Shown here: piece by piece, positions 16,696 to 55,003 of the stretch | How the letters are laid out: every line of letters begins with the position of its first letter | How positions within the stretch are numbered: position 1 is the first letter of the stretch | DNA from: Halomonas socia | Lineage (GTDB): Bacteria; Pseudomonadota; Gammaproteobacteria; Pseudomonadales; Halomonadaceae | Assembly: GCF_010977575.1 (NCBI RefSeq) | Contig: NZ_CP048812.1 | Coordinates: 1,488,001-1,552,000 of the forward strand | DNA: 64,000 bases | Direction: 5' to 3' | Notes under the pieces: model-generated | Told to the model about the DNA's origin: nothing | Databases searched by the model: none | The model's input: only the letters and a program-made list of their open reading frames with translations | Program-made: the position numbers and the translations under genes

Positions 16696-17442
16696 ATGAG
16701 TGATACCCACCACGACCGATCCGACGCCGCCACCAGTGCGCCCGAGAGCCCCGCGGCGCCGCTGCACCGGCGCGGCATCAAGAGCTATGTGCTGCGCGCC
16801 GGGCGCATGACCATTGCCCAGACCCGCGGTCTCGAGGAGATCTGGCCGCGGCTGGGGCTGACCCTGGCCGAGGGTCGCCAGGACCTCGGCGCGCTGTTCG
16901 GGCGGCGTGCACCGAGGGTGGTGGAGATAGGTTTCGGCATGGGCGCTTCGCTGATCGAGCAGGCCGAAACCCACCCGGATACCGACTTCATCGGCATCGA
17001 GGTACACGCCCCCGGGGTCGGCAAGCTGCTCGACGAGGCCGACAAGCGCGGCCTGAGCAACCTGCGCGTGTACCGCGAGGACGCCCTGCGGGTACTCGAG
17101 GAGTGCCTGCCCGAGGCCAGCCTCGATACCCTGCAGCTGTTCTTCCCCGACCCCTGGCCGAAGAAGAAGCACCACAAGCGGCGCATCGTCCAGCCGGCCT
17201 TCGTCGAGCTGGTGCGCACCCGCTTGAAGCCGGGCGGCACCTTTCACCTGGCCACCGACTGGGCGGCCTACGCCGAGTGGATGGCCGAGGTGATGGATGC
17301 CGCGCCGGGCTATCGCAACACCGCGGCGGAGACGGCACCCTATGTGCCGCGCCCCGAGTTCCGGCCGCTGACCAAGTTCGAGGCCCGCGGCGAGCGCCTC
17401 GGCCACGGCGTATGGGACCTGATCTACGCCCGCGATACCTAA
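16696..17442 (+). CDS. trmB: tRNA (guanine-N7)-methyltransferase TrmB
   Basis: 248 residues. SAM-binding motif '[16 protein letters not shown]' near residue 75, '[15 protein letters not shown]', and the signature '[25 protein letters not shown]'. Methylates G46 in the variable loop of many tRNAs. The N-terminal about 30 residues are variable and polar as usual. Likely last gene of the thiS-thiG-trmB transcript. Confidence 0.96.
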
Positions 17443-17732
17443 GCGGAAGCGCCACTCCTATCACTGTGTCCTGGCCCATGCATGGTCGGGGCTATCACGC
17501 TCGTAGCTGATCCTCCGGCAGGCCTACGAGGAGGCGCTGTAAACCCGTCCCTGGGCGCTAAACGCCCTGCTGCACTCCCGCATCCTGCTTCGCTTGCAGG
17601 GCCGGTGCTGGCCATCCATGGCCAGCCCGTTCGGAGCAATGCTCCTCACCCCTGGCGTTGAACCTCCTTTTCGACCTACCGCCGGCGCTCCTCGCTGCAA
17701 TAGCTTTGGGCGCAGTTATTGTCGGGGTAGAA
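17443..17732. repeat. Palindrome-rich intergenic spacer, no gene
   Basis: No credible coding frame. The stretch holds a series of short perfect palindromes: GGGCG/CGCCC near 17,555, CTGGCCAT-CC-ATGGCCAG at 17608-17625 and GGAGCA-A-TGCTCC at 17633-17645, plus an interrupted CTCC/GGAG pair around 17,510-17,535. It looks like degraded extragenic palindromic elements of the type common between Halomonas genes. I could not define unit borders. Confidence 0.5.
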
Positions 17733-17760
17733 AAGAAAAAGCCGCTCCGGAAGGAGCGGC
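17731..17760 (-). terminator. Rho-independent terminator of the candidate sRNA
   Basis: On the minus strand an 8-bp perfect stem GCCGCTCC/GGAGCGGC (17741-17760) with a TTCC loop is followed by TTTTTCTTTT (17731-17740). Orientation is unambiguous because the plus strand lacks a T-run after the stem. Confidence 0.9.
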
Positions 17761-17850
17761 GAAAGACCGTGACTAGCTTGATGAGGAGAAACCATGGCAG
17801 AAAACCTGACATTCTCTGCGATGGCGTGTGGCGCCTGGCAAGCGCCACGG
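17733..17850 (-). ncRNA. Candidate Fur-regulated small RNA (about 117 nt)
   Basis: Seen on the minus strand: TTGACG, 17-base spacer, TATCTT, then a transcript that opens with a perfect 7-bp hairpin (GTGGCGC/GCGCCAC, 17828-17848), continues through about 65 bases with little structure, and ends in a textbook intrinsic terminator. The unstructured part contains TTTCTCCTCATC, complementary to Shine-Dalgarno sequences, as expected for a base-pairing repressor. A Fur-box-like palindrome overlaps the -10 and spacer. There is no gene downstream on this strand before trmB, so the promoter would serve only this RNA. By analogy with RyhB, PrrF and NrrF it could be an iron-sparing sRNA. Alternative: the terminator belongs to the AEC gene and the promoter is fortuitous. 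Confidence 0.6.
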
Positions 17851-17855
17851 TTGTT

Positions 17856-17884
17856 AAGATAATCGTTCGCATTCGCGACGTCAA
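17856..17884 (-). promoter_or_regulatory. Sigma-70 promoter with overlapping Fur-box-like site for the sRNA
   Basis: The -35 TTGACG (17879-17884) and -10 TATCTT (17856-17861) are separated by exactly 17 bases. The plus-strand sequence GATAATCGTTCGCATTCGC (17858-17876) matches 12 of 19 positions of the classical Fur box, including the full first hexamer and CATT. Fur binding here would block RNA polymerase. Start of transcription is estimated at 17848-17851. Confidence 0.55.
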
Positions 17885-17906
17885 GCGTAACGAGAATATT
17901 TTTTAT

Positions 17907-18824
17907 TTAACCTCCGGTCAGGCGCAGCCACAGCGGCAGCGTCAACATCGCCAGCAGCGTCTGGCCGGTGATCAGCGCGGCCATCAGCTCGGCGTCGCCG
18001 CCCAGCTGGCGGGCCAGGATATAGGCCGAGGTAGCGGTGGGCAGGGCGGCGAACAGCAGCGCTACGTCGCGGCTCACCGGGTCCAGGCCGAGCAGCAGGG
18101 CGAGCGCCAGTACCAGGCCTGGCATCGCCACCAGCTTGAGCAGGTTGGCGGCCCATACGCCGCGGTCGAGGCGTACCAGCGCACGCGGGCGCAGCGCCAC
18201 GCCGACCGCGACCAGGCCCAGCGGTAGCGCTGCGCTGCCCAGCAGGCCGACGGTCTGGGCGCTCCAGCCGGGCAGGCCGATGCCGCTCAGGTTGAGCGCA
18301 ATGCCCGCCAGGCAGGCAAGTATCAACGGGTTGCGCGCCAGCGCCAGCAGGCTCTTGCCGAGGCTGGCCGGGCCCAGGGTGCCGGCGGCGATGAAGCTCG
18401 CCACGCACAGCACGTTGACCACCGGCACCATCAGCGCCACCGCTACCGCGGCGACGGTGGCCCCGGCGCTGCCGTGCAGGGCGCTGGCGCCGGCCACGCC
18501 GACATAGGTATTGAAGCGCAGCGCGCCCTGGAATACCGAGGTGAAGGCCGCCGGGTCTAGCCCCAGCCGTTGGCGCAGCCGCCACAGCAGGGCGCCGAGA
18601 ACGGCCATGACGCCGAGCAGCACCAGCGCTACCCGCCCCACCGGGACCTGGCTGACGTCCGCCGTGGCCAGCGTCGCCACCAGCATGGCGGGAAACAGCA
18701 AAAAGTAGATCAGCTTCTCCAACTGGGGCCAGAAATCACCGCCCGGCAGGTGTTTCCAACCCAGCGCGGCGCCCAGCAGGATCAGCAAGAACAGCGGGCC
18801 CAATGCTCCGGCCACATCACCCAT
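17907..18824 (-). CDS. AEC-family (auxin efflux carrier type) transporter
   Basis: 305 residues from the ATG with AAGGAG six bases upstream; the longer frame has no site. About ten transmembrane helices in two inverted halves. N-terminal 'LGPLFLLILLGAALGWKHLP' and the C-terminal repeat 'PTATSAYILARQLGGDAELMAALITGQTLLAMLTLP' are typical of bacterial AEC permeases (malate/auxin efflux-like). Substrate unknown. It is divergent from the FixH-like/SCO pair; the candidate sRNA promoter begins about 20 bases after its stop. Confidence 0.9.
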   Translation of the reverse strand: MGDVAGALGPLFLLILLGAALGWKHLPGGDFWPQLEKLIYFLLFPAMLVATLATADVSQVPVGRVALVLLGVMAVLGALLWRLRQRLGLDPAAFTSVFQGALRFNTYVGVAGASALHGSAGATVAAVAVALMVPVVNVLCVASFIAAGTLGPASLGKSLLALARNPLILACLAGIALNLSGIGLPGWSAQTVGLLGSAALPLGLVAVGVALRPRALVRLDRGVWAANLLKLVAMPGLVLALALLLGLDPVSRDVALLFAALPTATSAYILARQLGGDAELMAALITGQTLLAMLTLPLWLRLTGG

Positions 18825-54130: not shown

Positions 54131-54154
54131 AAAAAAGCCCCGCAGTGGCGGGGC
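54131..54154 (-). terminator. Terminator of the iolR-iolG-iolB transcript
   Basis: On the minus strand GCCCCGC/GCGGGGC (54137-54154) with a 4-base loop is followed by TTTTTT (54131-54136), about 50 bases after the iolB stop. It may also slow read-through from the convergent TauE gene. Confidence 0.8.
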
Positions 54155-54202
54155 GAAGAGACGTCAGGCTAGAAAGACTGACAGGACACGCATTACCGGT
54201 GA

Positions 54203-55003
54203 CTACCTCACGAGCCATTCGTGAGCAGGATCGTTCTGAAACTTCCATGCCCGCTTTGGGCCAGCCATCACGTTGAGGTAGTAGAGGTCATAGCCGTGGG
54301 CGGCTCCCACCGGATGGTAGCCGCGTGGCACTATCACGCAGCAACCGTTCTCCACTGCCATGGTGTCGTCCAGGCTACGGTCGTCGGTATAGACCCGCTG
54401 GAAGGCAAAGCCCTGGGAGGGGGTGATGCGGTGGTAGTAGGTCTCCTCGAGGATCGACTCCTCGGGCAGGTTGTCCACGTCATGCTTGTGGGGCGGATAG
54501 CTAGACCAGTTGCCAGCCGGGGTGTAGACCTCCACCACTAGTAGGCTGTCTGCCGGCTCGGTCTCCGGCAGGATGTCCTGAATATATCGGGTGTTGGTAC
54601 CGCTACCGCGGGTGCTGCGTTTGACCTGGTCGGGGGTGATCAGGCGCGGCGCATGATTGCCGTGGCCGGGTGCGCTGCAAACCGCCAATTCCAGATCGGT
54701 GGTGGCCTCGACGCTGTAGCTCACCCCGTCGGGTAGATAGACGGAGTAGGGCGGGACCTTCTCGAAGATATCCATGCGCTCGCCGATGTTCTCCCAGCGG
54801 TGTTCGCCGCTGGACACGGTGGCGCGTCCAGTAAGCAGCACCAGGCAGTGTTCGCGGCCCTCGGTATTGGCCTCGAGGCGTTGGCCTTTCGTCAGCTTGT
54901 GGACGCGGAAGCCCACATGTTCCCAGTTAGCGGATGCCGGGGTGACTTCGAGTACCTTGCCCTGGGAATCCGGCTCATTCGGGCGGACCAGTAGTGACGT
55001 CAT
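54203..55003 (-). CDS. iolB: 5-deoxy-glucuronate isomerase IolB
   Basis: 266 residues from 'MTSLLVRPNEPDSQGKVLEVTP'. Bicupin with 'VGFRVHKLTKGQRLEANTEGREHCLVLLTG', 'SSYPPHKHDVDNLPEESILEETYYHRITPSQGFAFQRVY' (metal His/Glu) and 'VIVPRGYHPVGAAHGYDLYYLNVMAG'. Converts 5-deoxy-glucuronate to 5-dehydro-2-deoxy-gluconate in inositol breakdown. Follows iolG by 20 bases. Confidence 0.95.
   Translation of the reverse strand: MTSLLVRPNEPDSQGKVLEVTPASANWEHVGFRVHKLTKGQRLEANTEGREHCLVLLTGRATVSSGEHRWENIGERMDIFEKVPPYSVYLPDGVSYSVEATTDLELAVCSAPGHGNHAPRLITPDQVKRSTRGSGTNTRYIQDILPETEPADSLLVVEVYTPAGNWSSYPPHKHDVDNLPEESILEETYYHRITPSQGFAFQRVYTDDRSLDDTMAVENGCCVIVPRGYHPVGAAHGYDLYYLNVMAGPKRAWKFQNDPAHEWLVR

Follow-up and report, generated by a model that had tools for sequence, protein, structure and literature searches.

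The minus strand of a 64,000-nucleotide stretch of Halomonas socia DNA, analysed here as a whole and termed the window, carries a complete small RNA (sRNA) gene plan at positions 17884-17731, comprising a promoter, a Fur-like box, a 5′ hairpin, a middle hairpin, a single-stranded core and a terminator. Judged from its sequence, the locus is very probably the prrF gene of H. socia, specifying an RNA that is presumed to be repressed by Fur, to depend on Hfq and to spare iron by pairing with the start sites of mRNAs. The computed results are homology to PrrF, a conserved structure with a Fur-like box, the presence of FUR-family and Hfq genes, and complementarity to start sites of candidate target genes. 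The same DNA had earlier been interpreted from its letters alone as a candidate Fur-controlled sRNA gene, and the claims of this sequence-only reading are taken up below where the results bear on them.

Organisation of the locus

The predicted promoter, TTGACG-N17-TATCTT, consists of a -35 hexamer (TTGACG, 17879-17884), which lies at similar spacing to the core in most loci of the family, and a -10 hexamer (TATCTT, 17856-17861), separated by a 17-base spacer. Already proposed in the sequence-only reading, it is the sole promoter-like match on the minus strand within 17400-18100; the plus strand contains one more, and shuffles of this region lead to an expectation of 0.1 matches on both strands together. 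The predicted transcript of about 116-120 nt occupies 17850-17731, with its start placed by reference to the -10 hexamer. It begins with the 5′ hairpin GUGGCGCUUGCCAGGCGCCAC (17828-17848), followed by the middle hairpin (17791-17825), which is predicted by folding in most of 34 relatives, and by the core CUCCUCAUCAAGCUAGUCACGGUC (17765-17788), the presumed target-pairing region. The intrinsic terminator (17731-17760) is formed by a stem-loop at 17760-17741, GCCGCTCC-TTCC-GGAGCGGC, with eight pairs, seven of them G-C, and by a U-rich tail at 17740-17731, TTTTTCTTTT. The low-structure stretch that had been called anti-Shine-Dalgarno was well seen, since it contains the core, which is near-invariant in one clade of relatives (clade A).

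Two protein genes flank the sRNA gene. Downstream and convergent on the plus strand is trmB (16696-17442; TIGR00091, 191.9 bits, above its cut-off). Upstream and co-directional on the minus strand is a gene for an auxin-efflux-type (AEC) transporter (17907-18824; TIGR00946, 72.1 bits, below the cut-off of 246), which is a neighbour of the sRNA gene in many relatives. The transporter stop at 17907 lies about 22 bases before the sRNA -35 hexamer and about 56 bases before the predicted start, and the shared direction makes read-through from the transporter possible. The RNA could thus derive from the 3′ untranslated region of the transporter gene, or be its terminator region, as a single terminator could serve both genes. 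This is an improbable explanation, because a conserved promoter with a Fur-like box lies between transporter and sRNA; moreover, RNAs with a -35 hexamer and Fur-like box persist at loci L041-L046, where the fetched stretch showed no transporter, and PrrF-like RNAs occur in other families with neither trmB nor transporter detected. Both genes also went undetected at all 32 loci L069-L100. Within the family, one or other of these genes was found in the fetched stretch at 46 of 50 loci, the four with neither being L032, L033, L044 and L046. An independent prrF gene therefore remains the preferred reading of the locus.

Homology to PrrF

No Rfam family matches the window at curated cut-offs. Among weaker matches, PrrF (RF00444) is the top one in 17400-18200 and the only strong one, covering the entire model (1-150 of 150) at 49.5 bits (E 3e-7). 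As this score falls below the RF00444 gathering cut-off of 90, annotation based on cut-offs misses the locus. The Rfam model includes the promoter, and the transcript was therefore rescored without it, giving 35 bits (E 6.5e-5). The single-stranded PrrF core UCUCCUCAUCA-GCUA-UCACGG is present at the locus, together with a 5′ hairpin and a terminator of the PrrF type, both of which covary. On these sequence grounds the RNA is a PrrF homologue, none having been found described in the family of the window, but not a curated RF00444 entry. Weak matches to mir-593, Bp1_684, ylbH and other Rfam families lie far below their cut-offs and are taken as chance.

Scores of the same order are found in relatives. 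When 14 loci of the window family were compared with Rfam, 20 matches at E ≤0.1 were obtained, all to PrrF (33.4-73.0 bits) and distributed over 13 loci, with L047 lacking any Rfam match at E 0.1 or better; none of the 20 reaches the cut-off of 90. Twenty loci from across the order gave 32 matches, again all to PrrF, of which 26 score 43-84 bits and six score 127-162 bits, compared with 49.5 bits here. The latter six, the only ones to pass the cut-off, all belong to family f21, which holds Stutzerimonas stutzeri; passing the cut-off thus seems to signal membership of f21 rather than homology.

Relation to known iron-responsive RNAs

PrrF1 and PrrF2 of Pseudomonas resemble the H. socia RNA in the order of their parts, the 5′ hairpin, the core UCUCCUCAUCA-GCUA-UCACGGU, the terminator and the Fur-like box over the promoter. 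They differ in that a single match was found in the H. socia genome and in the neighbouring genes, which here are trmB and the AEC transporter.

Several other iron-responsive sRNAs invite comparison. RyhB of enterobacteria is a Fur-repressed, Hfq-type, iron-sparing RNA, NrrF of Neisseria is a Fur-repressed iron sRNA, and ArrF of Azotobacter vinelandii, a relative of PrrF, reportedly acts on sodB and feSII. The sequence-only reading had likened the candidate to RyhB, PrrF and NrrF as analogues; the kind of RNA is supported, but PrrF proves to be a homologue in sequence and so goes beyond a mere analogue. NrrF gave no Rfam match in 17400-18200, and RyhB is absent from the six Rfam matches up to E 10 in that region. 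A motif shared with the RyhB core, CGCNGAGAA, does occur in the RNA; it forms part of the middle-hairpin stem, however, and is not constant among relatives. As RyhB also gave no match, interpretation of the motif as a RyhB core was rejected. A passage of PMC4211561 states that PrrF and RyhB have no sequence homology in common.

The earlier remark that no iron sRNA has been described in Halomonas agrees with the open-access papers listed by the searches, among which neither a native PrrF nor another iron sRNA was found for Halomonas or the marine genera tried, and nothing was found on PrrF in Oceanospirillales. Where PMC12096840 touches on PrrF, it does so for P. aeruginosa only. Passages of three articles describe a PrrF1 scaffold as an engineering tool in H. 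bluephagenesis (PMC12164125, PMC13101641, PMC13414033), and its P. aeruginosa origin is stated outright in the last of these.

RNA structure and covariation

The 120-nt minus-strand RNA has a predicted folding energy of -51.9 kcal/mol (z -5.87), which none of 200 shuffles equalled. This best fold pairs the core with the 5′ end and differs from the conserved three-hairpin fold, which when enforced reaches -50.1 kcal/mol and is less stable by 1.8 kcal/mol. The covariation speaks for the conserved fold rather than the one that occludes the core: in the 5′ stem and the terminator stem, both sides have changed in 10 of 13 pairs, and 96.3% of alignment cells pair, compared with 36-55% for slid partners. 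Changes on both sides are seen in 44 cells against 13.1 in shuffles, and the observed covariation was reached in 0 of 500 shuffles. The 5′ hairpin of the sequence-only reading thus has support from covariation. The alternative in which the core pairs with the 5′ end may be a real second state in the window genus, or an effect of the folding model only.

The core hardly changes in one of two clades. It reads CUCCUCAUCAAGCUAGUCACGG with little variation there, and among the 23 clade-A transcripts of alignment A1 a single sequence departs from it, at one position. In the second clade, made up of genera g11 and g20, the core is shifted and reads about UCUCCYYCUCAUUGCUAGUCACGG. In these two genera the loop of the 5′ hairpin reads UUGAUGAG, or nearly so (L036-L039, L047-L049), and is complementary to the CUCAU(U) of the shifted core, so that a pseudoknot or self-inhibition is possible. 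A separate peculiarity is a GC-rich insert in the middle-hairpin loop at L034 (1316-1440) and L035 (1455-1579), which is missing from a sister copy about 0.2 kb away.

This pattern of change also bears on whether the locus encodes a small protein, given that a mechanically called 108-aa open reading frame with a TTG start (17558-17884) crosses the region. Such a protein is extremely unlikely, because single-base gaps separate relatives inside the region and conservation follows paired stems and an unpaired core.

The Fur-like box and the genes for Fur and Hfq

The 19-bp Fur-box consensus is GATAATGATAATCATTATC. The palindrome noted earlier across the -10 hexamer and spacer, GCGAATGCGAACGATTATC (17858-17876, minus strand), agrees with it at 13 of 19 positions, and 1.0% of 200 resampled 90-base promoter stretches contain a site as good (p 0.010). 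According to a rule given in part of PMC6922518, 14 matches are required of a Fur box; the H. socia box is one short of this, and relatives reach up to 17. Among 69 promoter stretches from the family, 24 attain 14 matches and 45 do not, including seven from promoterless tandem units or decayed units. In 50 of the 69 the box is significant at p ≤0.05, the 19 misses being made up of the same seven units (three in L036, three in L037 and one in L040) and 12 stretches with p 0.055-0.105.

The position of the box is also shared. The best site begins at +8 from the start of the -35 hexamer in 38 of the 69 stretches and at +14 in 11. At six loci (L032, L033, L043-L046) it lies instead upstream of the -35 hexamer, at -26 (-20 in L043), with 13-16 matches, as if control had been kept during turnover of the site. 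An upstream best site, at -21 or -26 and with 12-13 matches, is likewise seen in one copy each at L031, L034 and L035.

The weaker box of the window genus, at 13 of 19 in all five of its loci (L001-L005), with some members of the family at only 12, leaves room for a stress-responsive sRNA of PrrF descent that is not under Fur control in this genus. We regard this as improbable, since the box is widely conserved in both position and sequence, the displaced sites at the six loci named above fit continued control, and relatives found with a model containing no promoter also have the box (33 of 35, see below). Repression by Fur thus remains the favoured interpretation, and the H. socia genome contains an Hfq gene (101 bits) and two FUR-family genes, which score 150 and 57 bits.

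Distribution among relatives

Conservation in relatives had been set beforehand as a test of the sequence-only reading, and promoter, Fur-like box, 5′ hairpin and terminator proved to be kept in close and more distant relatives alike. A search with the window DNA found the locus in 186 of 201 family genomes, representing 22 of 24 genera. A transcript-only model without promoter, R1, was built from 34 family transcripts and matched 198 of the 201 genomes and 23 of the 24 genera, part of this coverage being by construction because the model derives from family sequences; in genera g3 and g5 it gave weak matches. One match was found in 144 of these genomes, two or more in 54 and none in three. 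The H. socia genome has one, at 17735-17850, its sequence being one of the 34 sources of R1; a weak R1 match elsewhere in the window (54131-54227, 14.4 bits) is taken as chance. Nor does every R1 match mark a gene: L099, a second match in genome G015 of the window family, is doubtful, with neither the core nor a significant box.

Across the order, R1 was positive in 58 of 390 sampled genomes, 18 belonging to the window family. A sample of 369 genomes from the whole class gave four positives, each a member of the order. These samples were drawn evenly, and in searches of more than 40 genomes the filters were stricter, at the cost of weak matches. Among 42 R1 matches examined with their upstream DNA, 35 have the core, and in 33 of these 35 a Fur-like box is present at p ≤0.045, even though the box is absent from the R1 model; the exceptions are L096 (p 0.085) and one copy at L082 (p 0.070). 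Matches with the core occur in seven other families (f2, f7, f16, f21, f35, f37 and f38, the family of Oceanobacter). The exact core pattern was found in 22 stretches, including those of Oceanobacter kriegii (three matches), Thalassolituus, Oleispira, Bacterioplanes and Stutzerimonas. At L087 (family f20) a strong Fur-like box (16 of 19) stands without a clear core. The R1 matches L085, L088, L089, L091 and L098 have neither core nor box and are regarded as chance.

Proposed function and predicted targets

We infer expression of this RNA, its repression by Fur, its dependence on Hfq and the repression of its targets along the following lines. When iron is sufficient, Fe-Fur would occupy the promoter box and block transcription. 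As iron becomes scarce, the gene would yield an RNA of about 117 nt that ends at its own terminator, and Hfq would bind the U-rich tail of this RNA. By base pairing, the core would then cover the start codon and ribosome-binding site of mRNAs that encode iron-rich but dispensable proteins. Translation of these mRNAs would be blocked and their decay hastened, and iron would be spared. The first half of the core, together with CCAUGGUUU, would address the mRNAs for a high-potential iron-sulfur protein (HiPIP), a LutA-like Fe-S subunit and a 932-aa aconitase, and the second half perhaps that for sdhC (succinate dehydrogenase). In addition, CAUGG in the 3′ arm of the middle hairpin is a potential partner for the AUG and spacer of target mRNAs.

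Predicted pairing was compared with a background of 397 start regions, which a simple script had called in the window plus 400 kb of the H. socia genome and which served for each of the eight genomes studied. Because GC-rich start regions reach the same values, duplex energy alone fails to separate targets, and z-scores against shuffled cores were therefore used. A search for complementary sites in the H. socia genome returned 148, barely more than the 133 of the control. Similar values are reached by a few percent of background start regions, belonging to genes without an evident iron link.

The HiPIP gene (PF01355) beats all 397 background regions by z-score in four of six genomes (G000, G049, G014, G023) and ranks at 3.3% in G010 and G011; by energy alone, that of G011 is unremarkable (20%). 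The gene for an Fe-S subunit that we take to be LutA-like, an 80-residue piece of which has below-cut-off matches only, to Fe-S oxidoreductases, beats all 397 in G000 and G049 and ranks at 4.0% in G014 and 2.3% in G023; three of the other four genomes gave no match to it, and G001 gave distant matches only. For both genes, only the relatives provide independent evidence, since the H. socia copies were first found by complementarity search. The acnA gene (aconitase family, about 932 aa) ranks at 0.8-4.3% in seven of eight genomes (0.8% in G000, G014 and G011, 1.5% in G001, 1.8% in G049, 4.3% in G023 and G010), the eighth being G015 at 15.1%.

The case of sdhC concerns the second half of the core. 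With this half, sdhC beats all 397 regions by energy in six of eight genomes, with 2.3% and 4.5% in the others, and by z-score it ranks at 0-1.8% in seven genomes and 9.1% in G015. Scored with the whole core, sdhC does not stand out (10-86%), and the division into halves was a choice made once the sequence had been seen.

The classic target, superoxide dismutase, mostly seems to lie outside the targets of the window family. Twelve of 14 dismutase genes were scored. Superoxide dismutase (PF02777, Fe and Mn types taken together) fails in six of eight genomes (22-55%) and passes in G011 (1.3%) and G001 (2.3%), where both proteins begin MAFELPALP. As a second gene ('sod2') in four other genomes, a dismutase of this MAFELPALP type fails in all four (10-31%). 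The candidate targets leuC (36-80%) and an 885-aa aconitase (8-91%) each fail in three of three genomes. Apart from the two dismutases, these candidates were thus weak or negative. By these scores, start-site pairing is plausible for a group of iron-sulfur proteins that for the most part excludes superoxide dismutase, and the target set of PrrF in this family has likely been rewired.

Should the RNA act as proposed, a large group of salt-loving bacteria, some of biotechnological use, would possess an iron-sparing regulator that is invisible at the Rfam cut-off. The way in which an sRNA regulon is rewired would moreover become testable in a system with a nearly fixed seed that would have lost superoxide dismutase and gained HiPIP together with a lactate-type Fe-S protein.

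A wider picture is put forward tentatively, with the balance leaning somewhat against it. PrrF may be order-wide and have a two-part seed, one part directed at the ribosome-binding site and AUG of the HiPIP, LutA-like and aconitase mRNAs and the other at the GUG of sdhC; the regulon of the family may lack superoxide dismutase; arrays of up to five units may be driven by a Fur-controlled promoter on the first unit only; and read-through RNAs may carry a second, PrrH-like signal.

Tandem arrays and additional copies

Some relatives have tandem copies, resembling those mentioned for PrrF of P. aeruginosa in part of PMC4211561. L036 (1020-1735, minus strand) contains five PrrF-like units head-to-tail, the last of them degenerate, and L037 (1048-1749) contains four head-to-tail units, each ending in a terminator-like stem. 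In both arrays a -35 hexamer and Fur-like box are found on the first unit only, and the later units might be transcribed by read-through or from unseen promoters. By comparison, the five copies in a row at L081 (1084-2337) in family f38 each have their own Fur-like box. Such arrays are natural tests of sRNA dosage and read-through. Finally, L040 contains a third, diverged copy at 1516-1627, with the core CUCCUCAUCACGUUAGUCGCGG and without a Fur-like box or TTGAC, which suggests that this copy is decaying or differently controlled.
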